In this document: piece after piece, positions 1 to 33,571 of the stretch | Layout of the letters: each line of letters begins with the position of its first letter | How positions within the stretch are numbered: the first letter of the stretch is position 1 | The notes under the pieces: generated by a model | Told to the model about the DNA's origin: nothing | Database searches by the model: none | The model's input: the letters and a program-made list of their open reading frames with translations, nothing else | Virus record (IMG/VR): IMGVR_UViG_3300009537_000071 | Coordinates: 1 to 37,110 of that record | Source of the DNA: a virus | DNA: 37,110 nucleotides | Direction: 5' to 3' (one strand) | Position numbers and translations under genes: made by a program

Positions 1-191
1 CCCTTTTGACCCGCACGGCCCGAACGTGGGGAGGACCCGCGACACTGGTGGATGATTCTTGTTTGTTGTCGTCACGTGTTTGCATAGTGAAATGAATTTC
101 GGGCCTTAACTATTCACAACAGGGGCGCGGGGAATCATGGGCACGAAAAAAAGATAGAACACGGGCGCGCGCATCAGTGGTTGCCTTGCTT
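1..191. other. Non-coding left edge
   Basis: I see no convincing gene here. The stretch lies downstream of the leftward HTH-like gene that ends at 192. It carries no hairpin with a T-run that I would call a terminator, so leftward early transcription may continue past the window edge. Confidence 0.4.
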
Positions 192-620
192 CTATTCTGG
201 TTTTCGGATCACGCCATACTTGACCAGCGTTTCCAGTTCCTTGTCCTGCGCTATCACGCGCTGCTCCAGATCACGGATGCGCTTGTCCTTGGCGTCCTCG
301 ATCGGCACGGCACGGTAGCCACGCCGCAGGTTCTGCCAGCGCAGCACGATCTCGTTGCCACATAGGGTCTGCAGTTCGTCGAGCTTATCGATCGGGAAAT
401 GTGCGTTGCCCTGCCTAATCCGCGTCCAGTGTCCGGGGTCGATCTTGAGCGTCAGATAGATTTCCTTGTCCTCCAGCCCGGATGCGGTGATGCACAGGTT
501 CACGGCTGCGGTCATGCACGGCTGTCGCGCCACCAGGTCGTCCGGTATATCGGCGAACACAGCGTGCTCACCCATGGGGAAACTGAGCTGACCCGCGGTG
601 CTCAATTCTTTTGATTTCAT
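192..620 (-). CDS. Phage regulator-like protein with predicted HTH region
   Basis: A 142-residue protein. The start at 620 (MKSKELS) is preferred over 686 because the longer version reads through an inverted repeat at 638-654 and adds a low-complexity leader. The middle part (roughly residues 40-90, with IDPGHWTRIRQGNAHFP) resembles the helical DNA-binding segment seen in small phage regulators encoded near cI/cro. The C-terminal 40 residues are charged and coiled-coil-like (DKRIRDLEQRVIAQDKELE). It is read in the same direction as the cro-like gene and is probably co-transcribed with it in the leftward early operon. The function is inferred from context; no catalytic motif is visible. Confidence 0.6.
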   Translation of the reverse strand: MKSKELSTAGQLSFPMGEHAVFADIPDDLVARQPCMTAAVNLCITASGLEDKEIYLTLKIDPGHWTRIRQGNAHFPIDKLDELQTLCGNEIVLRWQNLRRGYRAVPIEDAKDKRIRDLEQRVIAQDKELETLVKYGVIRKPE

Positions 621-637
621 TTGACGGTCCCGCCTAT

Positions 638-654
638 GGCCAAAAAAATTGGCC
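638..654. repeat. Perfect 6-bp inverted repeat around A5
   Basis: GGCCAA at 638-643 and TTGGCC at 649-654 flank five adenines. It lies 18 bases upstream of the ATG at 620. It could be a protein-binding dyad or an RNA hairpin in the leader of the gene. It does not match the AAG-N5-CTT operators of the switch region. Confidence 0.4.
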
Positions 655-723
655 GCACCTATCGTTTCGGATAAGCGCGGCCACAACCCACACCAGGAGT
701 AATGCTTGACGACAACAACAAAA

Positions 724-798
724 TGGAAGCGGGGGCCGGACTCGAACCGACGACCTGCGGATTATGAGTCCGCCGTTCTGCCGCTGAACTACCCCGCA
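724..798 (-). tRNA. tRNA with CAU anticodon (Met or lysidine-Ile2 type)
   Basis: Read on the minus strand this folds as a tRNA: D-arm GTTC/GAAC, anticodon stem GCGGA/TCCGC around the loop CTCATAA (anticodon CAU), T-arm GTCGG-TTCGAGT-CCGGC, and an encoded CCA. Six acceptor pairs form (GCGGGG/CCCCGC). The first position would be T1 opposite T72, which does not pair. The anticodon stem lacks the three G-C pairs typical of initiator tRNA, so elongator Met or Ile2 (CAU read as AUA after lysidine modification) is more likely. It sits in the switch region between the HTH-like gene and the cro-like gene and looks phage-carried. Confidence 0.85.
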
Positions 799-819
799 AC
801 AACGAATAAAAAGCGCGAC

Positions 820-1029
820 TCATGCGGCAACCCCGTCGCTCCTCTGGCCGTAAATATCAGGACGCAGATCATGACGGGAGATACCGGTTATGCGCTCAAC
901 ATCCAAAACACGATTAACCGGCACCTGTTGCCACTGCGCTATTGCCGATCGACTGATGTTGAGATGGCGCGCCAATTCAGCGGCGCCGCCTGAAGCAGTG
1001 ATCACTTTTTCTAAAACAGAGTTATCCAT
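820..1029 (-). CDS. Cro-like HTH repressor
   Basis: A 69-residue protein made almost entirely of one helix-turn-helix domain: AAELARHLNISRSAIAQW is the HTH core, followed by the typical VNRVLDVERITGISRHDLRP helix and turn of Cro/YdaS-type phage proteins. It diverges from the repressor gene at 1111, and the 81 bases between them carry three copies of a dyad operator. No Shine-Dalgarno is visible. The candidate -10 (1036-1041) ends 6 bases before the ATG, so the mRNA may be leaderless. The expected role is lytic-side repression of the lysogenic promoter, by analogy with lambdoid switches. Confidence 0.85.
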   Translation of the reverse strand: MDNSVLEKVITASGGAAELARHLNISRSAIAQWQQVPVNRVLDVERITGISRHDLRPDIYGQRSDGVAA

Positions 1030-1035
1030 GGGCGA

Positions 1036-1065
1036 AGGTTAAGCCTGACTTAATCTTATTGTCAA
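1036..1065 (-). promoter_or_regulatory. Leftward early promoter (cro side)
   Basis: On the minus strand, TTGACA occupies 1065-1060. It is followed after 18 bases by TAACCT (1041-1036) and then, 6 bases later, by the ATG of the cro-like gene. The -35 overlaps operator 2 and the spacer/-10 overlaps operator 1. The same geometry is found at the rightward promoter at 1790-1819, which supports both calls. The -10 is a weak match on its own. Confidence 0.6.
1039..1053. promoter_or_regulatory. Operator 1 of the switch (TTAAG-N5-CTTAA)
   Basis: TTAAGCCTGACTTAA is a perfect 5-bp dyad around a 5-base centre. It is the best of five related sites and overlaps the -10 region of the leftward promoter. The presumed ligands are the repressor (1111-1506) and the Cro-like protein. 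Confidence 0.75.
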
Positions 1066-1076
1066 GCTGTACTTAT
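1062..1076. promoter_or_regulatory. Operator 2 of the switch
   Basis: TCAAGCTGTACTTAT keeps the AAG-N5-CTT core. Its centre is 23 bases from operator 1 and 4 bases upstream of the leftward -35. Confidence 0.7.
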
Positions 1077-1079
1077 CGC

Positions 1080-1085
1080 TACAAT
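1080..1085 (+). promoter_or_regulatory. Candidate -10 of the repressor promoter
   Basis: TACAAT at 1080-1085 with a possible weak -35 TTATTG at 1056-1061 (18-base spacing) would drive the repressor gene from within the operator array. A start near 1092 would leave a leader of about 20 bases with no Shine-Dalgarno. The call rests on position and a partial consensus only. Confidence 0.4.
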
Positions 1086-1086
1086 G

Positions 1087-1101
1087 TAAAGCACGCCTTA
1101 C
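1087..1101. promoter_or_regulatory. Operator 3 of the switch
   Basis: TAAAGCACGCCTTAC keeps the AAG-N5-CTT core. It is centred 25 bases from operator 2 and lies just downstream of the candidate repressor -10, a position suited to autoregulation. Confidence 0.65.
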
Positions 1102-1110
1102 AGTAACGTC

Positions 1111-1506
1111 ATGAAAGACATTTTTGCCGAGCGTTTCAAAGCAGAGCGGGTGCGTTTTGGGCTTACCCAGGACGACATTGCAGAGGTGTGCAAAAATCGC
1201 GATGGCGATCCTCCAAGCCGGGCAGCCATTGCGCAATGGGAAAAGGCCGGCGGCACAAAACCGAGCTTCGAGAATCTCGTGGCGGCCACACGACGCATGG
1301 GCACGTCGATTGATTATCTCGTTGGCTTAACCGACAAGCTCACACCAGAGCAAAAAAACCGGGTCTACATCGCAGCAGATGAAACAGGGGCATATAATCC
1401 CCTTTCCGACGAAGCCATACGCTTCGCCCAGCGCTGGCAGCGTTTGCCACCACCCATGAAAAAGGCCATTAAAGATTTGCTCGGAACGCTTCAATTGAAA
1501 AACTAA
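1111..1506 (+). CDS. CI-like lysogeny repressor (XRE HTH)
   Basis: A 131-residue protein with an XRE-type HTH domain in residues 1-75 (FGLTQDDIAEVCKNR, SRAAIAQWEKAGGTKPSFENL, then the SIDYLVGLTD end typical of these domains) and a short helical C-terminal region. There is no LexA-type peptidase domain, so RecA-stimulated self-cleavage is not expected, and induction must use another route. It diverges from the cro-like gene across three operators. The same operator type reappears over the promoter of the DGR operon. ATG 1111 has no clear Shine-Dalgarno. Confidence 0.85.
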   Translation: MKDIFAERFKAERVRFGLTQDDIAEVCKNRDGDPPSRAAIAQWEKAGGTKPSFENLVAATRRMGTSIDYLVGLTDKLTPEQKNRVYIAADETGAYNPLSDEAIRFAQRWQRLPPPMKKAIKDLLGTLQLKN

Positions 1507-1518
1507 CCGGAGGAATTC

Positions 1519-1725
1519 ATGGCTTCCAAGCAGCTCATGCAGTTCTGCAAAAGATGCGATAAATCGACAAGCCATATAGGCCCGGGAACATCTCACTTAC
1601 TGCATCTCGTTTTGTCGATCATCACATTCGGGATCTGGCTTCCAGTCTGGCTGCTGACTGATATATTCAACAGCAGCGAGCTCGCCTGTAGTCAATGCGG
1701 GAAAAAACGCGGTTTCTTCGGGTAA
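1519..1725 (+). CDS. Small zinc-ribbon membrane protein
   Basis: A 68-residue protein with a strong GGAGG 12 bases after the repressor stop, so it is co-transcribed with the repressor. A CKRC pair near the N-terminus and a CSQC pair near the C-terminus could bind one zinc ion. Between them lies a hydrophobic stretch (LLHLVLSIITFGIWLPVWLL) long enough for a membrane pass or hairpin. Because it would be expressed from the prophage together with the repressor, a lysogen-specific role such as exclusion or conversion is possible. That role is inferred from position alone. I do not recognise a named family. Confidence 0.7.
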   Translation: MASKQLMQFCKRCDKSTSHIGPGTSHLLHLVLSIITFGIWLPVWLLTDIFNSSELACSQCGKKRGFFG

Positions 1726-1741
1726 TTCAGCCTAATCCATA

Positions 1742-1766
1742 GGCCCCGCCAGTCGGGGCCTTTTTT
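1742..1766 (+). terminator. Intrinsic terminator after the repressor operon
   Basis: Stem GGCCCCG (1742-1748) and CGGGGCC (1754-1760) with loop CCAGT, followed by six T. It closes the repressor and zinc/membrane protein transcript and separates it from the DGR operon promoter 24 bases further on. Confidence 0.9.
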
Positions 1767-1778
1767 ACGTCATACCTG

Positions 1779-1793
1779 TTAAGTCTGGCTTGA
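1779..1793. promoter_or_regulatory. Operator 4, over the DGR operon -35
   Basis: TTAAGTCTGGCTTGA matches the NNAAG-N5-CTTNN consensus of the three sites in the repressor/cro intergenic region. Its centre is 4 bases upstream of TTGACA and it shares bases with that hexamer, as operator 2 does at the leftward promoter. Confidence 0.7.
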
Positions 1794-1819
1794 CAGAGTG
1801 GTTAAGCTCTGCTTATCAT
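1790..1819 (+). promoter_or_regulatory. Rightward early promoter driving the DGR operon
   Basis: TTGACA at 1790-1795 is a perfect -35. TATCAT at 1814-1819 (18-base spacing; TTATCA at 17) is the -10. An ATG at 1826 follows 6 bases later, as at the cro-like promoter. Two operators cover the promoter. It lies downstream of the repressor terminator and upstream of about 8 kb of co-directional genes ending with the integrase. Confidence 0.75.
1802..1816. promoter_or_regulatory. Operator 5, over the DGR operon -10
   Basis: TTAAGCTCTGCTTAT, with a complete AAG-N5-CTT core, is centred 23 bases from operator 4, the same spacing as operators 1 and 2. It covers the spacer and the start of the -10. Confidence 0.7.
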
Positions 1820-1861
1820 GTAGTCATGTGCTCAACCAACAAACCCACAACCGGAGGCATC

Positions 1862-2335
1862 ATGCGAACAAACACCGAATCATCTGCACAAACAGCACAT
1901 GCCCAAGCCATGCCAGCAAAGCCGCCGATCATGGAATGGCCGCTCGGCGAACTGCCGCGCATCGGTGCCGAATGGCCAGGCCAGGGCGGACGATTCGCCG
2001 GGATCGTGCGCGGGCAAGATGGCGCGCCGGATTACCTGCTGATTCTCGGCCCAGAGTACGACGGTGAGTTGCCATGGCAGCAGGCGATGGACTGGGCCGT
2101 TGCTCTTGAGATCGACGGCCACAAGGACTTCTCGCTGCCAACACGTGCCGAGCAGGCTGTGTTGTTCGGCAACATGCGCAACCAGTTCCAGCGAGACGGG
2201 TACTGGTCCTGTGAGCAGCACGCCGAGAGCGCCGGCTATGCCTGGATGCAGGGCTTCAACTACGGCAGCCAGATCAACCACCTCAAGGGCAATGAGTGGC
2301 GCGCACGTGCTGTCCGCAGATTAATTATTCAGTAA
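1862..2335 (+). CDS. DGR target protein 1 (CLec/DUF1566-like variable protein)
   Basis: A 157-residue protein from ATG 1862, which has GGAGG at 1853-1857. An in-frame ATG at 1826 sits at the expected transcription start and could make a leaderless longer form. The core (PRIGAEWPGQGGRFAGIVRG, GHKDFSLPTRAEQAVLFG, GYWSCEQHAES) follows the C-type-lectin-fold DUF1566 pattern of many DGR variable proteins. The last 35 residues are encoded by VR1 (2215-2321), and the surface-type variable positions coincide with template AAC or GAC codons. There is no signal peptide. It is a paralogue of target 3 (5156-5653). The ligand and location in the cell or virion are unknown. It is the first gene after the operator-covered promoter. 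Confidence 0.88.
   Translation: MRTNTESSAQTAHAQAMPAKPPIMEWPLGELPRIGAEWPGQGGRFAGIVRGQDGAPDYLLILGPEYDGELPWQQAMDWAVALEIDGHKDFSLPTRAEQAVLFGNMRNQFQRDGYWSCEQHAESAGYAWMQGFNYGSQINHLKGNEWRARAVRRLIIQ
2215..2321 (+). repeat. Variable repeat VR1
   Basis: Aligns without gaps to TR 6217-6323 (107 bases). It differs at 10 positions by hand count, every one an A in the TR (to G, T or C). Examples are AAC to AGC, AAC to GGC, AAC to TAC, AAC to ATC, CAC to CTC and GAC to GGC. The 5' end and the 3' segment from AATGAGTGG to GCAGAT are identical to the TR. It encodes the C-terminus of target 1. Confidence 0.95.
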
Positions 2336-2348
2336 TTTAATAATTTAA
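2335..2348 (+). repeat. 14-bp direct repeat after VR1 (copy 1)
   Basis: ATTTAATAATTTAA follows VR1 and occurs again at 5648-5661 after VR3. It suggests that targets 1 and 3 duplicated with their downstream flank. It may also be the AT-rich sequence that follows DGR target sites. Confidence 0.6.
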
Positions 2349-2357
2349 GGAGGGAAA

Positions 2358-2780
2358 ATGACCGCCACCGTCGTCGATCTCAACACGCACCGCCGCTACA
2401 AACGCGACTTGGACGGCGTCAAGGATTCTGTCGGCCAGGTCATCATGGATAACTACCGGCACCACCAGCTGGCCGATATCGCCTCCGGCATTCATGCCGC
2501 CTGCCGCGTCATCGACGCCGGCGGATCGTTCATGGATGCCATGGATGCCGCGGATAAAACCATCCAGATCGCCGCGCTCGGGGTAATGCCTGCGCAACGC
2601 ACCGCCCGCCTCTTGCGGCTGGCCGAAGGCGAACTGCGCACCCGCCTGGCCGGGCAACCGGAACACGACATTGTGTCGGCAGTGGCGCGTGCGCGCCGTG
2701 TGCTGGAAGGCGGCGGCACCTGGTGCGCCGCAGTCTATCTTGCGCTCGGCGGTGAACTCGAAGGACCGGGGGCGGCATGA
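2358..2780 (+). CDS. Hypothetical protein, alanine-rich helical
   Basis: A 140-residue protein with a strong AGGAGG upstream of ATG 2358. It is rich in alanine and helical. The second half has an evenly spaced pattern (LLRLAEGELRTRLAG, IVSAVARARRVLEGGGTW). No recognised domain, signal peptide or membrane segment. Its stop overlaps the next ATG (ATGA), so it is translationally coupled to the CsrA-like gene. Function unknown. Confidence 0.7.
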   Translation: MTATVVDLNTHRRYKRDLDGVKDSVGQVIMDNYRHHQLADIASGIHAACRVIDAGGSFMDAMDAADKTIQIAALGVMPAQRTARLLRLAEGELRTRLAGQPEHDIVSAVARARRVLEGGGTWCAAVYLALGGELEGPGAA

Positions 2781-2956
2781 GGCTGCTGCTCATCGGCACC
2801 ATTGGCGACAGCAAGTTCGTCTCGAATCTCGGTGCCGAGATCGAGATCAAAGTGGTGAACATCAAAAACAACCGCGTGCTGTTCGAGGTGGTCACCAGAA
2901 AACCGGCAGCGCACGCGGCGGATGATCCGATGTTCCTGAAGAGGCAGGCGGATTGA
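2777..2956 (+). CDS. Small CsrA-like protein (candidate RNA-binding regulator)
   Basis: A 59-residue protein starting in an ATGA overlap with the upstream gene. The pattern MRLLLIGTIGDSKFVSNLG then EIEIKVVNIKNNRVLFEV then KPAAHA follows the strand order of CsrA (G-E-x-hydrophobic, I-x-I-x-V, N-x-V-x-F/I-G-V, P-x-x-x-x-V-H-R). The Arg44-type residue of CsrA is not clearly present. If the fold is right, it would bind GGA motifs in mRNA leaders and adjust host or phage translation. This is a resemblance read by eye, and a generic small beta protein is the alternative. It is in frame with tight neighbours on both sides, which supports it being a real gene. Confidence 0.55.
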   Translation: MRLLLIGTIGDSKFVSNLGAEIEIKVVNIKNNRVLFEVVTRKPAAHAADDPMFLKRQAD

Positions 2957-3150
2957 TGATGCGAAATATAAAAACACTGTGGACGCGCTTTCGCGTGTGG
3001 CGCCTGAACCGCTGGGCCGACGAAATGCTGCGCGACTCTGAATTTCACAAACGTGCGGCATCGGAACACCGCATTGCGGCATCGCTGTATTGGAGCAAGG
3101 CCAGCGACGCGCGCTCGCTGGCAAGCCGTCTGCAGGCGGCGGGACTGTAG
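2956..3150 (+). CDS. Small basic hypothetical protein
   Basis: A 64-residue protein starting in a TGATG overlap with the previous stop (an ATG also at 2959). It is strongly basic and helical (RFRVWRLNRWADEMLRDSEF, then AASEHRIAASLYWSKASDAR). No signal peptide. Many early-region phage proteins look like this and bind nucleic acid or host enzymes, but nothing here allows a specific assignment. Confidence 0.6.
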   Translation: MMRNIKTLWTRFRVWRLNRWADEMLRDSEFHKRAASEHRIAASLYWSKASDARSLASRLQAAGL

Positions 3151-3159
3151 GCGCACACC

Positions 3160-3381
3160 GTGACCGAGCGCGCGGCCGTGATGATCGGCAACCACCCGGT
3201 AACCTTCACGCCGCATTACCTGCCAGGCGTCGGCGCGCGTGTGCTGGTACACGACAGCTGCCCGGGGCCGCGCAACCTGTCGCCGGACGATGCGCGTCTG
3301 TTTGCGGCGCATTACAAGATTGCCGCCGACGAGTCCGAATCAATCCAGCGTCGTAATCTGCAACGCCGTCCAGCGGCGTAA
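3160..3381 (+). CDS. Hypothetical protein
   Basis: A 73-residue reading frame starting at GTG 3160; an ATG at 3181 is an alternative start giving MIGNHPVTFTPHYLPG. It follows the previous gene by 9 bases and has no strong ribosome site. It has a short beta-rich N-terminal half and an acidic then basic end. No family is recognised. Its place in a tightly packed co-directional series is the main support. Confidence 0.5.
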   Translation: MTERAAVMIGNHPVTFTPHYLPGVGARVLVHDSCPGPRNLSPDDARLFAAHYKIAADESESIQRRNLQRRPAA

Positions 3382-3412
3382 ATTTAACAAGTAACACAAA
3401 GGAGCATCGCAA

Positions 3413-3811
3413 ATGAAACATCTAACGCAGTTATTGTTCGTCGTGTTGTCCGTTGCTGTTGCCATTCCCGCGTTCGCCTTCGATGTGCGCATCGCCGCCG
3501 GCGGCCTGGCGCGCGACGAGGACCGGCAAGTGGTGCAGCTGGGTGTGGACATGGCCGGGTTTCAGCCCACCTACACCGCCTGGCACGAACAGCGCGCCGC
3601 ATCGCTGCTATACGCCAAGCGCTGGCAGTATTTCGAGCTGGCCGGCGGCCCCGCCTACGTGTCGCCGGAACAGGGTGATGCTGGCATCGCCGCGCACGTG
3701 CGCCTCGGGCCGCGTATTGGACCGTTCTTCGTGGTGTATGAAACGCTGATCCATGATGGCAGGGCCACGAACATCATCATGGGCGGCGTGCAGTTTCACC
3801 TCGGGCGCTGA
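3413..3811 (+). CDS. Secreted/periplasmic protein with signal peptide
   Basis: A 132-residue protein with a clear ribosome site (AAAGGAG) and a Sec signal peptide: MKHLTQLLFVVLSVAVAIPA followed by FAFD, cleavage likely after AFA near residue 22. The mature part alternates aromatic and small residues and ends GGVQFHLGR, a pattern like outer-membrane or periplasmic beta structures. The cell-surface lysis-side protein at 9882-10421 has a similar late pattern (VRIxxG, RWQYFELAGGPAYV). It is an exported protein in an early operon, so a superinfection or envelope-modifying role is possible. Confidence 0.65.
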   Translation: MKHLTQLLFVVLSVAVAIPAFAFDVRIAAGGLARDEDRQVVQLGVDMAGFQPTYTAWHEQRAASLLYAKRWQYFELAGGPAYVSPEQGDAGIAAHVRLGPRIGPFFVVYETLIHDGRATNIIMGGVQFHLGR

Positions 3812-3827
3812 CTTGAGGGATTTAACC

Positions 3828-4037
3828 ATGAGGATCTCGTTCACGATCACCGCGAAAGAAAGCGAAACCGCAAGCGACTGGATAAAAAATCATAAATGCG
3901 CGCAGCGTGGTCATTACCCCGGCCCGATCGGCGGGACAATTTCTTTTTGCTTCACCGAAACAACCATCGGAACAATCGTGGTTGTTAAATGCGGGTGTGG
4001 TCAAGAATTGAATTTAACCGATTTCAGCAACTGGTAA
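3828..4037 (+). CDS. Small Cys-containing hypothetical protein
   Basis: A 69-residue protein from ATG 3828 with GAGGG upstream; a longer frame from 3753 only overlaps the previous gene. It has a beta-rich core (ISFCFTETTIGTIVVVKCGC) with a C-x-C pair and two other cysteines plus histidines (HKCAQRGHY), which could bind zinc. Function unknown. Confidence 0.65.
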   Translation: MRISFTITAKESETASDWIKNHKCAQRGHYPGPIGGTISFCFTETTIGTIVVVKCGCGQELNLTDFSNW

Positions 4038-4047
4038 TTACAGAGCC

Positions 4048-4374
4048 ATGGCCAAACGCGCACCCAAAACACCCACCATCACAATCCTCGACCGCGCCCT
4101 CGCCAAGGCGCAGGAATCCGAGGCACCGTTTTATGAGTCGATGAAACTCATGAAGCAAGCCGCCGACGAACTGCGGCCGGTGCTCGCCGAAGGCAGCCTG
4201 TATTTCAGCGCCATGCGGGCGCTGTACACCATCGCCACGGTGCCGTGCGAATCCGGCGAAGTTCAACCGCGGCATAAGGATTGCCCGGGCGCACTGGCCG
4301 CCAAGGCAATGGAAGAATCGGAGCGCTGCTGGCCGTGCTATGCGCGGCATGTGTTGAAGGGTGGCGCGCCGTGA
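4048..4374 (+). CDS. Hypothetical protein with C-terminal CxxC
   Basis: A 108-residue protein. The N-terminal half is helical (LDRALAKAQESEAPFYESMK). The C-terminal half has four cysteines, VPCESG, HKDCPG and RCWPCYARH, that could form a small zinc site. Its stop overlaps the next start (GTGA). No family is recognised. Confidence 0.65.
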   Translation: MAKRAPKTPTITILDRALAKAQESEAPFYESMKLMKQAADELRPVLAEGSLYFSAMRALYTIATVPCESGEVQPRHKDCPGALAAKAMEESERCWPCYARHVLKGGAP

Positions 4375-4577
4375 GCCGCCAACTCGAAACCAAGGGTTAC
4401 TGCTACATCGCCTGCGAGATACGCCGCACCACCGACAAGGCCGTGCTAATCCATGACGGCGCGATCGAGGCGTGGATCCCGCGCAGCCAGATCGAGGACC
4501 CGGAAGAATTTGAAACCGGCGCACACGTTGAAATGTTGATGCCGGAATGGTTGGCGAAGGATAAGGGTCTCATCTGA
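4371..4577 (+). CDS. Small hypothetical protein
   Basis: A 68-residue protein from GTG 4371, overlapping the preceding stop as GTGA. The sequence IRRTTDKAVLIHDGAIEAWI followed by PRSQI is a beta-rich motif common in small phage and plasmid proteins. It sits immediately upstream of target 2. Function unknown. Confidence 0.65.
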   Translation: MSRQLETKGYCYIACEIRRTTDKAVLIHDGAIEAWIPRSQIEDPEEFETGAHVEMLMPEWLAKDKGLI

Positions 4578-4610
4578 GCACGCATTATCCATATCAAAAT
4601 AGGAGCGAAT

Positions 4611-5120
4611 ATGAAAAAACTGCAAATTGTTTCCGCCACACCAGGTGCCGCCTTTGGTGGCGGCTTCTACGCCGGCCGCTTCTTCATCGGCGACCAGCCC
4701 CATGCGCTGATCGTTGCGCCGAAGGCTAAGGGGCAGATCGACGCGATAGCGTGGAACAAATCGTTGAAGATCGTCGCCGGTGCCACGAGCTATTGCGACG
4801 GCCTTGCCAATACAAAAGCGATGGCAAAGGCCGGCAGCACGCTGGCCAAGAAAATAATGAAGCTGCGGATCGGCGGCTTCGATGATTGGCACCTGCCGAG
4901 CCGCCTGCAGCTGTTGATGGCCTACCACGAGCTCGCGGCAGCAAAGAATTTTGCGCGCGGCGCAGAAGAGGCGTTCGATTTTGCATGGTACTGGTCGAGT
5001 ACGCAGCACGCCGAGGGCGCCGACTATGCCTGGATGCAGCTCTTCAGCTACGGCTACCAGGGCGGCGGCCACAAGGCCAATGAGTGGCGCGCACGTGCTG
5101 TCCGCACGATCAAACTTTAA
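4611..5120 (+). CDS. DGR target protein 2 (DUF1566-like variable protein)
   Basis: A 169-residue protein with AGGAG upstream of ATG 4611. The core FDDWHLPSRLQLLMAYHEL followed by FAWYWSSTQHAE is the canonical DUF1566 pattern (WRLP...L, YWSST), a C-type-lectin-type fold used by DGR proteins. The last 35 residues are encoded by VR2 (5001-5106), after which a private tail (TIKL) replaces the RL tail of targets 1 and 3. The N-terminal half differs from targets 1 and 3, so this is a separate scaffold carrying the same variable end. It has no signal peptide. The ligand is unknown. Confidence 0.88.
   Translation: MKKLQIVSATPGAAFGGGFYAGRFFIGDQPHALIVAPKAKGQIDAIAWNKSLKIVAGATSYCDGLANTKAMAKAGSTLAKKIMKLRIGGFDDWHLPSRLQLLMAYHELAAAKNFARGAEEAFDFAWYWSSTQHAEGADYAWMQLFSYGYQGGGHKANEWRARAVRTIKL
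5001..5106 (+). repeat. Variable repeat VR2
   Basis: Aligns without gaps to TR 6215-6320 (106 bases) and differs at 14 positions, all A in the TR. It is the most diverged repeat: three consecutive AAC codons have become GGC, and AAC has also become CTC, TAC and AGC. Identity with the TR stops at GCA, two to three bases earlier than in VR1 and VR3. Confidence 0.95.
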
Positions 5121-5155
5121 CCATTTATCCATTCATCAATTTAGGAGCCAATACG

Positions 5156-5653
5156 ATGCAACTCACCAGAAACGGAGTGACCATCCAGGTCGAAGAATCC
5201 ACGGTTATGGCACTGGTCATGCAGAGCGTGATGGAGAATCGGCACCCTGTACTGCATGAAGGCATCATCACCACACCGCCGCGCATCGGCGCAGTGTGGC
5301 CAGGGCAAGGCGGCACCTATGCCGGCATCATGCGCGGCCGTGATGGCGGGCAGGATTATTATCTGATCGTCGGCGATTCCACTGAGGAAACAACCTGGGA
5401 AAAGGCGAAGGCCGCCGCCGCTTCGATGAAGGCAGACGGGCACAAGGATTTTACCTTGCCATTCCGCGCCGAGCAGGCGCTGCAATTTGCCAACGTGCCG
5501 GAGTTGTTCAAGAAGGAAGGGTATTGGTCCTGTGAGCAGCACGCCGAGTACGCCGACTATGCCTGGGTGCAGGGCTTCGACTACGGCATCCAGGACTTCT
5601 ACCACAAGGGCAATGAGTGGCGCGCACGTGCTGTCCGCAGATTAGCCATTTAA
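5156..5653 (+). CDS. DGR target protein 3 (paralogue of target 1)
   Basis: A 165-residue protein with TTAGGAG upstream of ATG 5156; the longer frame from 5084 overlaps VR2 and is rejected. Residues 41 to the end match target 1 closely (PRIGAVWPGQGGTYAGIMRG, GHKDFTLPFRAEQALQF, GYWSCEQHAE). The first 40 residues differ. The C-terminal 35 residues are encoded by VR3 (5536-5642). It has the same CLec/DUF1566-like fold as target 1 and lies directly upstream of avd, TR and RT, the usual position of a DGR target. Confidence 0.9.
   Translation: MQLTRNGVTIQVEESTVMALVMQSVMENRHPVLHEGIITTPPRIGAVWPGQGGTYAGIMRGRDGGQDYYLIVGDSTEETTWEKAKAAAASMKADGHKDFTLPFRAEQALQFANVPELFKKEGYWSCEQHAEYADYAWVQGFDYGIQDFYHKGNEWRARAVRRLAI
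5536..5642 (+). repeat. Variable repeat VR3
   Basis: Aligns without gaps to TR 6217-6323 and differs at 12 positions, all A in the TR, including ATG to GTG in the WMQ codons and AAC to TTC. The 3' constant part through GCAGAT is identical to the TR and VR1. Confidence 0.95.
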
Positions 5654-5661
5654 TAATTTAA
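5648..5661 (+). repeat. 14-bp direct repeat after VR3 (copy 2)
   Basis: ATTTAATAATTTAA, identical to 2335-2348 after VR1. See the entry for the first copy. Confidence 0.6.
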
Positions 5662-5680
5662 CAATTTCGATTTTATCAGC

Positions 5681-6037
5681 ATGGCCCTTCATACATCACT
5701 GCCAATCTACAAGGTCGCCTACGACCTGCTGAGTGTGGCCACAGACTACGTGCAGAACATGCCGCGTCCGTTCAAGGCTGCAATCGGCGGGCGCGTTCGC
5801 GATCTGTGCGTGGATCTGGTGTTGTTGATCTTCAAGGCCAACTGCGCGCGGGACAAGGGGCCGCATCTCGATACCCTGCTCGAACGGCTGGAGGAACTGA
5901 ACCTGCTGCTCCGGCTCTGCCGGGACAAACGCTTCATTTCAACCGGCCAGTACGCCAAGGCCATTGAACTCACAGCCAGCGTCGGCAAGCAAGCCAACGG
6001 ATGGAGAAAACACAATGCATCGTCGCCTGTTGCCTGA
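5681..6037 (+). CDS. avd: DGR accessory variability determinant (Avd)
   Basis: A 118-residue all-helical protein of the bAvd/S23-like four-helix-bundle type: helix 1 YKVAYDLLSVATDYVQNMP, helix 2 RDLCVDLVLLIFKANCAR, helix 3 LLERLEELNLLLRLCRDKRF, helix 4 YAKAIELTASVGKQANGW. It is close to the usual length (about 120-130). Avd forms a pentameric, positively charged barrel that binds the reverse transcriptase and the TR RNA and is needed for mutagenic cDNA synthesis. It lies between target 3 and the TR, as in Bordetella phage BPP-1. The upstream ribosome site is weak. Confidence 0.92.
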   Translation: MALHTSLPIYKVAYDLLSVATDYVQNMPRPFKAAIGGRVRDLCVDLVLLIFKANCARDKGPHLDTLLERLEELNLLLRLCRDKRFISTGQYAKAIELTASVGKQANGWRKHNASSPVA

Positions 6038-6214
6038 CCGTCAAGGCGGTCCTGCCCGTGCGATTCTTGATCTGGTCGCGCCGCTGGCTCACAAGGCCAC
6101 CGCCATGCACACCACGGAGATCGCCGGCCACCAATCCGTGCCGGGCCGCTCCGGTGCAGTTTCCCCGCTGATCGGCGCGAGCCTTCGGCAGGGCGACATC
6201 GATAGCGCGAACCA

Positions 6215-6323
6215 ACGCAGCACGCCGAGAACGCCGACTATGCCTGGATGCAGAACTTCAACAACGGCAACCAGAACAACAACCACAAGGACAATGAGTG
6301 GCGCGCACGTGCTGTCCGCAGAT
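6215..6323 (+). repeat. DGR template repeat (TR)
   Basis: This is the only copy rich in AAC codons: eight AAC and two GAC codons between 6230 and 6295 in the frame used by the targets. All three VRs align to it without gaps, and the 36 differences fall only at its adenines. Its 5' border is ACGCAGCACG and its 3' constant segment runs from AATGAGTGG to GCAGAT (GCA for VR2). It is unusual in overlapping the start of the RT frame (ATG 6294). The same 3' segment therefore encodes WRARAVR in the targets and GAHVLSAD in the RT frame. Confidence 0.96.
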
Positions 6324-7448
6324 GAAACCGATGCAAAGACCGGCCATGCTGATTTTTCTTTCGAGGAACTGGTAATCGCCTACTTCGACTGCCGCCGCAC
6401 CAAGCGCAACAAACCATCCGCGCTCGCCTTCGAGCAGGATCTGGAGCACAACCTGATGCGGCTTTACGAAGCGCTGCAGGATGGCTCTTATCGGCCAGGT
6501 CCGTCCATCTGCTTTGTCATCACCCGCCCCAAGCCGCGCGAGGTGTGGGCCGCGGACTTCAGCGACCGCATTGTGCACCACCTGCTCTACAACCGCATCG
6601 CGCCACGGTTCTATGCCGCGTTCATCGCCGACTCCTGTGCCTGCATACCCGGCCGTGGCACACTCTACGCCGCCCAGCGTCTCGATGCCAAGGTGCGCAG
6701 CATCACACAGAACTGGTCGCGTCCGGCATGGTATCTGAAACTCGACCTCGCCAATTTCTTCGTCAGCATCGACAAGCGCATTCTGCGTGATCGACTGGCA
6801 GCACGTGTCACCGAGCCCTGGTGGTTGTGGCTCACCGAAACCATCTTGTTCCACGATCCACGCCCGGATGCATTGCTACACAGTCCGCCGGAACGCATGG
6901 CGCTCATCCCGCCGCACAAGAGCCTATTCAACCAGCCGGCGCATCGCGGCCTTCCGATTGGCAACCTGTCATCACAGTTCTTCGCCAACGTCTATCTCGA
7001 CGCGCTCGACCAATATGCCAAGCACCGGGTGCAGGCAAGGCACTACATCCGCTACGTCGACGACTTCGTACTACTGCACGAATCACCGCAGTGGCTCAAC
7101 GCTGCACACGATGACATCGAAGCGTTCTTAGCCGAGACATTGGCCGTCCGGCTGAACCCGACCAAAACCATCCTGCAGCCCATCGATCGCGGCATCGATT
7201 TCGTCGGTCAGGTCATAAAACCATGGCGCCGAACCCTGCGCCGGCGCACGTTGAACGATGCGCTGCACCGGGTTTCCAACATGGAGCCAGATCGGCTGTT
7301 CGAGTCATCCAACAGTTATTTCGGCCTATTGCGCCAAGCCACGCACAGCCATGCTGACAGGGCGCGGCTTACCAATGTACTGCTCCGGCGCGGGCAGTCT
7401 GTGAATCACTCGCTTACGAAAACATACCGACGGAGACCAAGCCCATGA
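6294..7448 (+). CDS. DGR reverse transcriptase
   Basis: A 384-residue group-II-like reverse transcriptase. Motif A is YLKLDLANFF (Asp151), the DGR-type motif 4 is LPIGNLSSQFFAN (residues 220-232), and the catalytic box is RYVDD (Tyr254-Asp257) followed by LNPTKT and IDFVGQVI. The SQ of IGNLSSQ replaces the QG of other RTs and is linked to low fidelity at template A. The start is uncertain: the frame is open back to 5964. ATG 6294 lies inside the TR with a poorly spaced AAGGA, while ATG 6015 has GGAG and overlaps the avd end but would add 93 residues read through the TR. The conserved domain begins near FSFEELVIAYFDCRR, so both forms keep it. Confidence 0.95.
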   Translation: MSGAHVLSADETDAKTGHADFSFEELVIAYFDCRRTKRNKPSALAFEQDLEHNLMRLYEALQDGSYRPGPSICFVITRPKPREVWAADFSDRIVHHLLYNRIAPRFYAAFIADSCACIPGRGTLYAAQRLDAKVRSITQNWSRPAWYLKLDLANFFVSIDKRILRDRLAARVTEPWWLWLTETILFHDPRPDALLHSPPERMALIPPHKSLFNQPAHRGLPIGNLSSQFFANVYLDALDQYAKHRVQARHYIRYVDDFVLLHESPQWLNAAHDDIEAFLAETLAVRLNPTKTILQPIDRGIDFVGQVIKPWRRTLRRRTLNDALHRVSNMEPDRLFESSNSYFGLLRQATHSHADRARLTNVLLRRGQSVNHSLTKTYRRRPSP

Positions 7449-7735
7449 GCGAATTTTCCAGCACTCAAATACACGGTCGCACATTAGCGCAGCACGGCGA
7501 TTCGGTAATCGAACAAATCTTCGCCGAGCTGCGCAAGGCCGAAGCTAAACACCCTGGCTGGCCGAATGATCCGATCCATGCTGTCGGTATCCTGGTGGAG
7601 GAAGCCGGCGAAGCCATGCAGGCGGCGATCGATCATGTCTACGCTGGCGGTGACCTTGAGAACCTGCGCACCGAACTCGCTCAAACCGGGGCCATGGCTA
7701 TTCGTGCACTGCTGCATCTTTCGGGGGATCAATGA
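7445..7735 (+). CDS. MazG-like nucleotide pyrophosphohydrolase
   Basis: A 96-residue all-alpha protein whose ATG overlaps the RT stop (ATGA). The EEAGEAMQAAIDH helix and the later ELAQTGAMAIRALLH helix follow the EExxE...ExxD/Q pattern of MazG/dUTPase-like all-alpha NTP-PPases. These hydrolyse (d)NTPs to monophosphates with Mg2+. The usual second-helix ExxD is here ELAQ, so activity could be altered. Tight coupling to the RT raises the possibility of a link to the dNTP pool, but MazG-like genes are also common in early phage operons on their own. Confidence 0.75.
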   Translation: MSEFSSTQIHGRTLAQHGDSVIEQIFAELRKAEAKHPGWPNDPIHAVGILVEEAGEAMQAAIDHVYAGGDLENLRTELAQTGAMAIRALLHLSGDQ

Positions 7736-8022
7736 CTGAATTCGAGAAACAAGCCGTCGTGGTGGCGCTCAAGAAGATGTTCCAGGGCAACCACTTCGAC
7801 ATCTGCGCCGTGGATAATTGTCTGAAAATAACCGGAGCAATCGCGCCGACGTCCGACTATAACGCATTGCGCGCACTGCACTGCGTGAGTTGGTCCGACA
7901 TGCCGGCAGGGTTCCGCGATCAGGTGTTCGTCAAGACGCTCGAACTTTTCACACACAGCGGGTTTCCGATCGAACAAATCATGCTGCCAGCCGCCGCCGG
8001 AACATTGAGGGCACTGCAGTGA
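7732..8022 (+). CDS. Hypothetical protein
   Basis: A 96-residue protein starting in an ATGA overlap with the MazG-like gene. Mixed alpha/beta composition with CVSWSDMPAGFRDQVFVKTL in the middle; no signal or membrane segment. Its stop overlaps the next GTG. The family is not recognised. It is probably a coupled small early protein. Confidence 0.65.
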   Translation: MTEFEKQAVVVALKKMFQGNHFDICAVDNCLKITGAIAPTSDYNALRALHCVSWSDMPAGFRDQVFVKTLELFTHSGFPIEQIMLPAAAGTLRALQ

Positions 8023-8204: not shown

Positions 8205-8467
8205 TCCCCTGCAAATACTGCCAAAAACCATTCGAGCCGGTCATTGATGATCAGCGCTTCTGTTGCCCAAAGCACAAGGCCGTCTGGCACCGGGAGAATG
8301 TGCCGCATGGAGTAATAACCAACGTTCGTCCTCTCAAGCGCGGCGGATACTCAATATCGCTGAAATACGAAGAACTGCCAAGAGGCACCTTATTAGGTGG
8401 CTCTGGTTGGGTTGAAACTGCCGCTAGTACGGGTACAGATGGCCAGAGACAGAATGAGAACACTTGA
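8201..8467 (+). CDS. Small zinc-finger protein
   Basis: An 88-residue protein starting MIPCKYCQKPFEP, with RFCCPKHKAVWHREN following. The C-x2-C and C-C-x2-H set reads as a treble-clef/zinc-ribbon finger similar to those in HNH-type and phage transcription-associated proteins. The C-terminal half is low-complexity and lacks any nuclease motif. It lies upstream of the excisionase candidate. It could bind DNA, but no role is certain. Confidence 0.65.
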   Translation: MIPCKYCQKPFEPVIDDQRFCCPKHKAVWHRENVPHGVITNVRPLKRGGYSISLKYEELPRGTLLGGSGWVETAASTGTDGQRQNENT

Positions 8468-8783
8468 CCTAGCCGACGCTGCCAAGCTACTGAAAATGCA
8501 CCCTCAAACGGCTCTGAGGCTGGCGCGTGCTGGCTTGATTCCGGCCGCCAAGCCGGGGAAATGCTGGGTCTTTATAGACGATGATTTGATTGATTGGCTC
8601 AGGTCGCATTATGCTTCCCCACGGCATGTGTCGCAGGGGCGGGAGAAACCTCTATGGCACTTTACAAAAGGAAAGACTCTGCCGTCTGGTGGGTCAGATT
8701 CACGGCCCCCAGCGGACGAGAAGTACGCCGCAGCTCTGGCACTACCGACAAAAGGCAAGCCAAGGAATACGAAGACAGCCTGA
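8454..8783 (+). CDS. Excisionase-type HTH protein
   Basis: A 109-residue protein from ATG 8454 (an in-frame ATG also at 8439). Residues 1-50 (LADAAKLLKMHPQTALRLAR, AGLIPAAKPGKCWVFIDDDL, IDWL) match the HTH_17 excisionase/MerR-like winged-helix pattern. It overlaps the integrase by 130 bases in a different frame. The last 40 residues lie in that overlap and look unstructured. The place directly before int suggests a recombination directionality factor. Confidence 0.75.
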   Translation: MRTLDLADAAKLLKMHPQTALRLARAGLIPAAKPGKCWVFIDDDLIDWLRSHYASPRHVSQGREKPLWHFTKGKTLPSGGSDSRPPADEKYAAALALPTKGKPRNTKTA

Positions 8784-9685
8784 AGTCGAAGTTGTGGCGA
8801 GTGGAGAACCTTGGAGAGAAGCCAAGGCGGCTATGGCAGGAAGCGGTTTTGCGGTTCGTCGAGGAACAAGAAGGCCAGCCTTCCTTACCAGTACAGAAAA
8901 TGCACCTCCGGTCACTGGATCAATGGCTGCGAGGTAGGTTTCTGGATGAGATCGGGAGGGACGTTCTGGACAACGTAGCCAAGGCAAGGAAGGCCGAAGG
9001 AGTATCATCGGCAACGGTGAACAGAATGCTTGAAGTGGTAAGGGCTGTATTGCGGCGGGCAGTCAGGGAATGGGAGTGGATTGACAAGGCGCCGGCTGTG
9101 CGGATGCTGAAGGTCAGCAAAAAACGCATTCGCTGGCTGACGCACGATGAGGCAGAAAGGCTATTGTCTGCCCTTCCGTCTCATCTTGAAGCCATGGCAA
9201 GGTTCACACTGGCAGCAGGTCCGAGGGAAAGAAATGTTGCGGGTCTTGAATGGTCACAGCTCGACCTGACAAGGAAGGTGGCATGGATTCACCCGGACCA
9301 GTCCAAGACGAAGAAAGCCTATGCTGTACCACTGAATGCCGATGCTGTAGCGGTAATCAGGAAACAGATCGGCAAGCACCCAACGCACGTATTCACCTAT
9401 CGCGGTGAGCCCGTGAAGCGGTGCAACAATCATGGATGGCGGACGGCGATCAAGAAGGCTGGCATTAAAGACTTCCGCTGGCACGACTTGAGACACACCT
9501 GGGCAAGCTGGCATGTCCAATCAGGAACGCCATTACAGGTTTTGCAGGAGCTCGGTGGATGGGCGACTTACAAGATGGTTCTGGTTTATGCCCACCTATC
9601 TGCCGGTCATCTTGCCGAGCATTGCGAAAATCTCGTCACGTTTTCCGGCACAGTGAATAAGTCGAGCGGTTCTGAAGTAGCGTAA
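8654..9685 (+). CDS. int: Tyrosine recombinase, phage integrase
   Basis: A 343-residue integrase from ATG 8654 with GGGAG upstream. It has an N-terminal Arm-type region (MALYKRKDSAVWWVRF), a SAM-like core-binding domain (residues about 60-155) and a catalytic domain. Catalytic residues: Arg191 (AAGPRERN, where TGLR is usual), His277 and Arg280 (HDLRHTWASW), Trp in LGGWA, and Tyr312 (VYAHLS). A tRNA-Lys 3' fragment lies 13 bases after the stop, giving the likely attP core. It is the last gene of the rightward early operon. Confidence 0.95.
   Translation: MALYKRKDSAVWWVRFTAPSGREVRRSSGTTDKRQAKEYEDSLKSKLWRVENLGEKPRRLWQEAVLRFVEEQEGQPSLPVQKMHLRSLDQWLRGRFLDEIGRDVLDNVAKARKAEGVSSATVNRMLEVVRAVLRRAVREWEWIDKAPAVRMLKVSKKRIRWLTHDEAERLLSALPSHLEAMARFTLAAGPRERNVAGLEWSQLDLTRKVAWIHPDQSKTKKAYAVPLNADAVAVIRKQIGKHPTHVFTYRGEPVKRCNNHGWRTAIKKAGIKDFRWHDLRHTWASWHVQSGTPLQVLQELGGWATYKMVLVYAHLSAGHLAEHCENLVTFSGTVNKSSGSEVA
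9637..9653 (+). repeat. 17-bp direct repeat flanking attP (copy 1)
   Basis: CACGTTTTCCGGCACAG inside the last codons of the integrase. An identical copy is at 9852-9868 on the other side of the att core. It is a candidate integrase arm-type site. Confidence 0.55.
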
Positions 9686-11078: not shown

Positions 11079-11498
11079 TTATTCCTCCTTGTCTGATTTG
11101 CGGCGCGGGAAGCCGCCGGGCGGGCCTTGCTCGCGCAGGCGGCGTTCGACGTTCACGATGTTGGCCATGTCGGGGGCGATTTTCCTGAGCAGGGCGAACG
11201 CCAGCTTGAAAGTGAGCGCAGCCGCCGGCCCGGCCATTACCGCCGGAATCCACCAGCTGAACCCGTGCGGCCAAATAAAGGGCGCGGACACGAAGCCGAC
11301 GAAGGCGCTGGCCAGATACACATGACCGTGGGTGCTGCCACGGTATGGGCTCAGGCGCCAGGCGATTTTGATGGTGTGGGTGGCGGCCAGCGTGACGCCG
11401 ATCAGCAGAATGAAGGCGCGCCACTCGGCGGGCGTGAACAGGGCGACGAACCAGGTCACCAGCGGAACGATGTACTGCTGCAGCAGGGTTTCGATCAT
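11079..11498 (-). CDS. Candidate holin (three membrane segments)
   Basis: A 139-residue protein with GGAGG before the ATG at 11498. It has hydrophobic segments near residues 10-45 (VTWFVALF, AFILLIGVTLAA), 60-90 (VYLASAFVGFVSAPFIW, WWIPAVMAGPAAALTF) and a strongly charged C-terminus (RRKSDKEE), the general form of a class I holin. It follows the amidase closely in the late operon. The assignment is by topology and position only. Confidence 0.6.
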   Translation of the reverse strand: MIETLLQQYIVPLVTWFVALFTPAEWRAFILLIGVTLAATHTIKIAWRLSPYRGSTHGHVYLASAFVGFVSAPFIWPHGFSWWIPAVMAGPAAALTFKLAFALLRKIAPDMANIVNVERRLREQGPPGGFPRRKSDKEE

Positions 11499-11530
11499 GT
11501 TGTCCTCCTCATTGGCACTTTGAGTTGCCG

Positions 11531-11743
11531 TTACTTAATCTCCGGGGTATCCACCGCTCGGACCCTTATAGCCACGTCGGCGGTCAGGGTGGGCCAGAGC
11601 ATGACATCGGCGCGCAGGGTGTCGCCGTCGATGGCGACCGGCGCCAGCACTGAATATGGCCCATAAGAGGCCGCCGGCAACGACAAGGGCAACGCCAAAA
11701 AACAGAGCACCAGCATGACCAACACCGTTCGCGTAAATTTCAT
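11531..11743 (-). CDS. Truncated secreted SNase-like fragment
   Basis: A 70-residue protein with a signal peptide (TVLVMLVLCFLALPLSLPA) followed by IDGDTL ... AIRVRAVDTPEIK and a stop. These are the first active-site strands of staphylococcal-nuclease-type enzymes (IDGDT with the metal Asp, then R-x-R-x-x-D-T-P-E-x-K), but the family runs another 80 or so residues that are absent. The other frames downstream do not continue the domain. It may be a remnant or a short protein with a new role; as written it should lack nuclease activity. It overlaps the amidase stop (ATGA). Confidence 0.65.
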   Translation of the reverse strand: MKFTRTVLVMLVLCFLALPLSLPAASYGPYSVLAPVAIDGDTLRADVMLWPTLTADVAIRVRAVDTPEIK

Positions 11744-12288
11744 TCCCCGTTCTCCTGTCCGATAATGGATTGCGCGCTGAACACCAGCGCGTCCGCCAGC
11801 GCCGCACAGGCCGGGTGCCGGCGCTCCTGAATCGTTGACCAGTTGTAGATGAACTCCGGCTCGACAATAATGGCCGGCCGCGCGGTCTGCGCCAGCAGCG
11901 CATCGGGGCCTTTGCTCTTGTCCATCTGATACCAGCCTTGCTTCGCGCCGCGCGATGGCGGAAAAATGCCGGCCAGCGCCTGCTGTACTATTTCCGCCGA
12001 GGCATGGCCGAGCAGTGAGCCCGGGCAATACAGGGTTTCGCTGCCGTGCTGGCGCTTGCTCTCGTCGCTGTTGAAATGGATCTCGCAAATCAGGCTGATA
12101 TTTTTCTGCGCGTTGATCCAGGCTATTTTTTCCGGCAGCCGGCCGGTGGGCACCATGTTCACCGGCGAGCGCCCGCGGATCAGGTTGGCGACTTCGGATG
12201 CCCACAGAATAGCCTCGTCGTATTCGTTGTGTCCGTTGTAGCTGGCGCCCTTGGCGAGCGGGTGATGGCCGGCGGAGATCAGGATCAT
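11740..12288 (-). CDS. Endolysin: N-acetylmuramoyl-L-alanine amidase
   Basis: A 182-residue amidase_3-fold enzyme starting MILISAGHHPLAKGASYNG; the start at 12288 removes a leader that overlaps the previous gene. Likely zinc and catalytic residues are His in SAGHH, Glu in HNEYDEA, His in CEIHFNS and Glu in IIVEPEFIYN. It cleaves the bond between MurNAc and L-Ala of peptidoglycan at lysis. It has no signal peptide, so it needs a holin; the candidate is two genes downstream. Confidence 0.85.
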   Translation of the reverse strand: MILISAGHHPLAKGASYNGHNEYDEAILWASEVANLIRGRSPVNMVPTGRLPEKIAWINAQKNISLICEIHFNSDESKRQHGSETLYCPGSLLGHASAEIVQQALAGIFPPSRGAKQGWYQMDKSKGPDALLAQTARPAIIVEPEFIYNWSTIQERRHPACAALADALVFSAQSIIGQENGE

Positions 12289-33215: not shown

Positions 33216-33545
33216 TTACAGGTTCCAGTCGTCGTTGCCGAATCCGCCGTTGCCGTTTTTCATTTTCCGCGCGATGCGGGTCACGGTATCCGGGTGCAAC
33301 TTATGTTTCGCCGCCACCGTGCGCGGATCGCTGGTGGCGCGCAGCTCGGAGGCGATGCGCGCGTCGCGCGGCACCTTGTCCGGCTTCGGCCAGTAGTGCG
33401 CCCGCCCGCCGAACCGGCCCTGCAGCTCGCCGCAGATTTTTTCCGCCTCGCTCAGTGCCGTTACGTCGTCCACCGCCGGGCGCGTCAACAACTCATAGAA
33501 CCGGTCGAGGACGGCATCGAGCAGTTCGCGGTCGCGGTCGGCCAT
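33216..33545 (-). CDS. Mor/C-family transcription activator-like protein
   Basis: A 109-residue protein from ATG 33545. After an acidic helix it has ICGELQGRFGGRAHYWPKPD, the GG-x-x-x-Y-x-P-K turn of Mu Mor, then a helix-turn-helix (RTVAAKHKLHPDTVTRIARK). Mor/C proteins bind dyads upstream of middle and late promoters and recruit RNA polymerase. The C-terminus NGGFGNDDWNL resembles the end of TerL (GGGFGSDGWNL). It lies directly upstream of a copy of the 43-base element. A small terminase role is an alternative, since none is seen elsewhere. Confidence 0.75.
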   Translation of the reverse strand: MADRDRELLDAVLDRFYELLTRPAVDDVTALSEAEKICGELQGRFGGRAHYWPKPDKVPRDARIASELRATSDPRTVAAKHKLHPDTVTRIARKMKNGNGGFGNDDWNL

Positions 33546-33571
33546 CGGGGTTATGTTCCGCTCATTCCTGG

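Follow-up and report, generated by a model that had tools for sequence, protein, structure and literature searches.

The stretch of DNA analysed here, hereafter the window, is the complete 37,110-base IMG/VR record IMGVR_UViG_3300009537_000071. No terminal repeat was found in its 37,110 bases, so the window may be only part of a phage genome. Its first 10 kb carry, in order, a CII-like gene, a tRNA-Met gene and a YdaS/P22-Cro-like gene (all on the minus strand), three dyads, a CI-like gene on the plus strand, a gene for 68 amino acids and a terminator. Two further dyads on a promoter come next, followed on the plus strand by DGR target 1, several small genes, DGR targets 2 and 3, bAvd, the template repeat (TR), the reverse transcriptase (RT), more small genes, an excisionase-like gene and an integrase gene. 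The genes for terminase, portal, tape measure, tail and endolysin occupy the opposite strand from about 11 kb to the window end.

The CII-like regulator (192..620, minus strand; phrog_101 CII-like activator, E 4.8e-6) is the second gene of a leftward early unit that also contains the tRNA-Met (CAT; 724-798, minus strand), which thus sits between the cro-like and CII-like genes, with the integrase gene far away. The Cro-like gene (820..1029, minus strand) belongs to the YdaS/P22 Cro family (YdaS_toxin, E 1.7e-16; P22_Cro, E 6e-10). The CI-like repressor of 131 residues (1111..1506, plus strand) matches HTH_3 (E 1.9e-6) and a PHROG transcriptional regulator/repressor family, and has a relative, 59% identical, in another viral contig (L001). 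Its ATG at 1111 has no clear ribosome-binding site ahead of it. The 68-residue gene (1519..1725, plus strand) occupies the position of lambda rex and probably shares a transcript with cI; its similarity to DUF4234 and to a LITAF-like zinc ribbon is weak, both matches being sub-threshold in Pfam. An intrinsic terminator at 1741..1761 on the plus strand, found by terminator scan and backed by the group statistic given below, separates the cI transcript from the DGR operon.

Five dyads, strand-neutral and recovered by pattern scan, alignment and matrix, are distributed over two promoter regions. At the switch between cro and cI, TTAAGCCTGACTTAA (1039..1053) covers the spacer and -10 of the cro promoter, TCAAGCTGTACTTAT (1062..1076) lies at the cro -35 and TAAAGCACGCCTTAC (1087..1101) stands immediately upstream of cI. 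Beyond cI, the OL-like operator 1, TTAAGTCTGGCTTGA (1779..1793), overlaps the -35, and operator 2, TTAAGCTCTGCTTAT (1802..1816), overlaps the spacer and -10 of a PL-like promoter on the plus strand (1790..1819), which reads TTGACA (1790-1795), 18 bases, TATCAT (1814-1819) and matches consensus at 11 of 12 positions. An earlier sequence-only reading had placed five such dyads here, two of them over a TTGACA/TATCAT promoter ahead of target 1, and this description stands: AAG-N5-CTT occurs at 1041, 1064, 1089, 1781 and 1804, that is, in 15-mers starting at 1039, 1062, 1087, 1779 and 1802. The whole-window scan that it had called for returns these five sites and one extra copy at 24673. Since the bare six-base core is not enriched over the 37 kb (6 seen versus 4.06 expected), the signal is carried by the clustering and spacing of the sites. 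Indeed, the window holds two dyad pairs spaced by 23 bases, compared with none in 300 whole-window shuffles, and when bases 1701-1860 were shuffled 20,000 times two sites arose in 21 shuffles and a 23-spaced pair in none. A matrix built from the three switch sites only ranks the 17-mers starting at 1801 and 1778 second and third among 37,094 positions, and the copy at 24673 is absent from the 12 matches listed for it.

The same reading had likened the geometry of the DGR promoter to that of the cro promoter. In an ungapped alignment of the cro side with the DGR side, operators, -35 and ATG do fall into one register; the likeness does not extend to promoter strength, as the poor cro -10 (TAACCT) falls far short of the TATCAT on the DGR side. 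Target 1 has two in-frame starts, an ATG at 1826, at the expected transcript start, and an ATG at 1862 behind GGAGG. With the cro ATG (1029) in a register like that of ATG 1826, both messages might be leaderless. The third operator is preceded by a TACAAT hexamer (1079-1084), which hints at a cI promoter that either CI or Cro might occlude, and so at autoregulation. The only other plus-strand match of the promoter scan in positions 1-8000 lies at 621-649 (9/12); between 1820 and 8000 the window scan found no sigma-70-like site on the plus strand and no terminator-like site. Promoters unlike sigma-70 may be present inside the DGR operon.

The operon behind this promoter runs on the plus strand throughout. 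Target 1 (1862..2335, or from the alternative start at 1826) is Lcl_C-like, matching PHROG 4245 (E 4.1e-13) and Lcl_C (E 2.5e-7, below Pfam's own cut-off); target 2 (4611..5120) is an Lcl_C protein by Pfam, and target 3 (5156..5653) an Lcl_C-like one whose match is below Pfam's own cut-off. Their VR cores, at 2227..2318 (VR1), 5015..5106 (VR2) and 5548..5639 (VR3), all on the plus strand, differ from the TR core (6229..6320, plus strand, defined by TR/VR comparison) at 10, 14 and 12 positions, respectively, every one of them an adenine in the TR; non-adenine differences number zero over 92 bases in the three VRs. The accessory protein bAvd is encoded at 5681..6037 (E 6.2e-15) and the RT in an ORF at 5964..7448 (RVT_1, E 2.4e-16, residues 197-415) whose true start probably lies after the TR. 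With a DGR-type RT, an Avd and VRs that depart from the TR at adenines only, this is a bAvd-type DGR. No further VR was found outside 2227-5639 in the 37 kb window, which therefore lacks a DGR in a tail or late module of the BPP-1 kind. The operon includes an excisionase-like HTH_17 protein (8439..8783) and ends with a tyrosine integrase (8654..9685), both identified by Pfam and PHROG matches. Target 1 starts directly at the promoter and the RT follows 4.5 kb further on; in four other loci, too, a target ORF starts less than 100 bases from operator 2.

In lambda, three operators separate the divergent cro and cI genes, further operators lie on a promoter past cI, cII follows cro, and the operon read from that second promoter finishes with xis and int. 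The gene order in the window is the mirror image of this: cII, cro, OR, cI, the rex position, OL/PL and then the operon, with xis and int last. It shares with lambda-type immunity regions the divergent cro and CI-like genes with like operators, the operators on a second promoter past cI and the xis and int genes at the operon end. Lambda carries three operators at each of its two sites, whereas the window has three at the switch and two at the second site, which makes the latter PL-like and places it outside lambda's own OL type. Two other differences are that the 131-residue repressor gave no S24 match and that the second operon is loaded with a DGR. Given this lambda-like layout, the DGR is cargo of a PL-like operon. 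The Pfam search of the repressor returned no S24 peptidase, only matches of the HTH type (HTH_3 and a sub-threshold Pou), so the usual induction by SOS cleavage is not to be assumed for this phage.

Which protein would occupy the sites at the DGR promoter can be approached through the presumed recognition helices, whose position was taken from the family rather than from a structure. In the window, HTH-profile alignment gives SRAAIAQWE for CI and SRSAIAQWQ for Cro. Since these are alike, either protein could occupy the sites, and binding of both proteins to both regions would fit the helices. Among related loci, the three with TAAACA operators have helices of the (Q/P)QTV.NWE type (QQTVNNWE, QQTVNNWE and PQTVKNWE), and three with AAG operators (L009, L032 and L044) have a QAV-type helix in common. 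The correspondence between helix and operator is not universal, as L058, whose operator is TACAAG, carries another kind of helix.

The region was first compared with that of L001, the contig with the related CI. L001 has the three plus two dyads of the window at identical spacings (23, 25 and 23), the same kind of terminator and a downstream homologue of target 1 (58.6%). Over the 44 promoter bases compared between the window and L001, the half-sites agree while most spacer bases differ. No RT was found in the 20 kb of L001 searched, and its target-1 homologue behind like operators (11299-11772) could be an orphan target, the remnant of a lost DGR or a target whose RT lies on unsequenced DNA.

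Recurrence of the arrangement was assessed in RT relatives, 80 loci being kept of 341 from viral contigs and, separately, 80 of 112 from bacterial genomes. At least 4 kb upstream of the RT was available in 52 viral and 72 genome-derived loci, and a plus-strand CI-like gene lay upstream in 43 and 50 of them. For each usable locus, the 3.2 kb behind its own cI were searched for a dyad pair resembling one from its cI/cro region in half-site and gap (score threshold 42); as a control, the switch of one locus was paired with the downstream region of another. To the 43 viral loci were added the window and L001, which entered through its cI and whose "RT" coordinate was set to the target homologue. 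The own-locus pair recurs in 24 of these 45 (0.64 expected) and, with the threshold unchanged, in 19 of the 50 genome-derived loci (0.63 expected). Pooled, 43 of 95 cI-containing loci (93 DGR relatives, the window and L001) have such a pair compared with about 1.3 expected from mismatched loci, these expectations coming from loci paired with each other, among which a few near copies are present (L032/L033, L008/L047 and L022/L184, one of these pairs spanning both sets). Reversed downstream sequence yields 1 of 95, and the region beyond the RT in the same locus 0 of 77. The L044 repressor served as a seed of the HTH profile, chosen after its dyads had been noticed, and this locus is thus not independent. 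No shared pair reaches the threshold in the remaining 52 of 95 loci, either because these are arranged differently or because the method missed their pairs. An unsupervised dyad scan with looser settings (half-sites of 5 bases, whole loci) had no power, with 33-34 in shuffled sequence and 36 in the window; it ranked the own switch dyads first in neither L001 nor L044 and was replaced by the comparison of switch and downstream region.

One positive, L028 (score 42), is a GC-rich match inside the coding sequence of an HTH gene; it was dropped from the 42 retained cases and is still counted among the 43 of 95. The 42 fall into 38 CI clusters at 60% identity and have many different operator sequences, so that operators covary within loci. 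In 39 of the 42 (the exceptions are L080, L206 and L241) the highest-scoring promoter over the pair outscores 95% or more of the local control windows. The register, too, is common to 39 of them, the -35 starting 11-15 bases past the start of operator 1 and the -10 ending 15-20 bases past the start of operator 2 (exceptions L044, L045 and L241). In 26 of 41 cases (L001 left out) the 220 bp ahead of the pair contain a terminator, which is true of 13 of 948 control windows. From the pair to the RT, conserved ORFs number 284 on the plus strand versus 29 on the minus strand, several of the latter overlying the start of the RT region. Between OL and RT in the 41 loci, internal promoters are not enriched (2 versus 4.6 by shuffle), and internal intrinsic terminators are in excess (15 versus 6.5), which may reflect read-through, antitermination or a second layer of control. 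In two further viral contigs from the pattern scan, L145 and L158, the promoter with its double operator is present twice, the copies facing opposite ways as in a cro/PL pair.

Six named phages belong to the RT clade (Magia, QDWS, Cruim01, Haboob, LPPA56 and phPA-G), the cI of LPPA56 being assumed from gene order. Their 15 VRs all lie on the RT strand, in the operon upstream of the RT; no VR was found elsewhere in these phages, and none in tail genes, in the 40-49 kb searched per phage (not every base). Only two of the six, Burkholderia phage Magia and Shewanella phage QDWS, have a clear operator pair, in both cases on a near-consensus promoter; like the window, they carry the DGR in a rightward operon behind cI with an integrase at the end. 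They differ from it in the sequence of their operators, and Magia also in having leftward ORFs across or beside the promoter, namely three short ones annotated at 3908-4762 (L258) around the rightward promoter at 4374-4413, which are probably over-annotation. Magia further has an intrinsic terminator annotated just before its second target. The scores of phPA-G (41) and LPPA56 (39) were weak and not accepted as shared pairs, and no shared pair was found behind the cI of Cruim01, Haboob or BPP-1. BPP-1 (NC_005357) resembles the window as a temperate phage with cI/cro, int and an Avd-type DGR comprising TR, VR, Avd and RT, but its DGR adjoins the tail gene mtd in a leftward structural unit rather than following cI, and there are no matching operators behind its cI. 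Its record (L263) annotates a "variable region 2" in bbp36 (33229-33558), within the rightward operon behind cI, though the DGR is in the tail unit. The more distant DGR phages BPP-1, VP58.5, phiARM81mr and FP_Lagaffe all have the DGR among structural genes.

Taken at the level of the locus, 1779-1816 is very probably the OL/PL equivalent of a lambda-type immunity region, in which operators serving the CI of this phage, and probably its Cro as well, lie over an early DGR-xis-int operon that would be silent in the lysogen and on at infection and induction, in a wiring that recurs in other phages. Binding, silencing, timing and any role of Cro are here predicted from the arrangement of the DNA. 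In the lysogen, CI on the two operators would shut the DGR promoter as it shuts the cro promoter, the terminator at 1741-1761 would keep the cI transcript out of the DGR operon, and targets, template RNA and reverse transcriptase would stay silent. When CI is absent, upon a new infection, or lost, upon induction, the promoter should fire, and targets, mutagenic machinery and xis/int would be made together until Cro occupies these operators. The sequence-only reading had proposed that the repressor silences the DGR and thereby ties variation to the lytic decision. Its first half, operator control of the DGR operon by the prophage repressor, is well supported in silico by the recurrence of the pair (43 of 95 versus 1 of 95 with reversed sequence), the 38 clusters and the terminator in 26 of 41 cases. 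The tie to the lytic decision is too narrow: the operon also carries xis and int, and by the logic of a PL-like promoter it should be expressed in a burst whenever a cell is newly infected, not only upon induction. Many temperate phages with a DGR repeat the wiring on operators of unrelated sequence, which gives it the look of a maintained design, an "early DGR".

It is possible, if somewhat doubtful in our view, that the locus is simply lambda's usual OL/PL, in which the DGR happens to ride along, any gene in that slot coming under CI control without selection on DGR timing. The architecture is lambda's own, L001 couples like operators and a target homologue with no RT match in its 20 kb, and the opposed pairs of L145 and L158 come from contigs found by operator pattern alone, DGR content forming no part of that scan. 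Against this reading, all VRs found in the window and the six named phages lie within this operon, whereas the four more distant DGR phages use structural modules. This confinement of the VRs to a PL-like operon points to a stable association, short of proof of selection on timing. Less probable still, and in our estimation improbable, is expression of the DGR in lysogens through read-through or a promoter of its own within the operon, in which case the operators at 1779-1816 would matter only for xis/int and other early genes. The hankyphage DGR is active in uninduced cultures (PMC12135933), internal terminators are over-represented, and one target stands directly at the promoter but the RT only 4.5 kb on; against such expression, 1820-8000 of the window has no plus-strand sigma-70-like site, internal promoters are not enriched in the 41 loci and an intrinsic terminator separates cI from the DGR promoter. 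That the dyads at 1779 and 1802 are a product of chance or a copied stretch devoid of regulatory meaning, as the unenriched six-base core might suggest, is hardly conceivable given the 0 of 20,000 shuffles with a 23-spaced pair, the contrast between matched and mismatched loci and the half-sites that window and L001 share amid diverged spacers.

Control of the DGR operon by the phage's own repressor, the reading we prefer, has its nearest counterpart in the hankyphage, where silencing of the CI-like repressor RepC raises most phage genes and the resulting virions show DGR mutagenesis (PMC12135933). Since DGR activity was also seen there in uninduced cultures, silence in the lysogen may be leaky. 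The hankyphage differs in being a transposable, Mu-like phage with a tail-fibre target, and the available text of that paper describes no operator at its DGR (PMC12135933). Likewise, the text available of the Magia paper mentions the DGR, with no operon or operators. DGR timing has been termed a lesser studied aspect (PMC11792537), and the coupling of phage DGRs to the lytic phase has been imagined as speculation, their natural regulation being called a frontier (PMC12875486); the main text of a global DGR survey uses none of the words repressor, lysogen, prophage or promoter (PMC8144416). Searches of open-licence PMC text turned up neither a description of repressor operators at a DGR promoter nor a PL-type class of DGRs, the hankyphage paper being the closest, and a subscription or preprint report could exist. 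What is new is the combination of a known switch with a known retroelement, and it is widespread.

With a repressor operator directly on a DGR promoter, the timing of DGR activity becomes a matter of gel shifts and of comparing transcripts in phages that can be cultured, QDWS among them. PL-type DGRs also become separable from tail-type ones, and the targets of the former are predicted to be early proteins, which would change the presumed purpose of phage DGR variation. Of 336 target-like ORFs, 332 lack any strongly hydrophobic stretch and 4 contain one, so that display of the targets on the lysogen surface by ordinary secretion seems unlikely, and a role in the virion would be compatible. A more speculative scenario, which we hold to be possible but rather unlikely, is that early DGRs, silenced by CI in the lysogen, hypermutate small, non-secreted C-type-lectin-like proteins instead of tail fibres at each infection or induction, the variants acting inside the cell on factors of the host or of rival phages. 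If true, the early DGR would be a source of anti-host or anti-defence binders, not of host-range variants.
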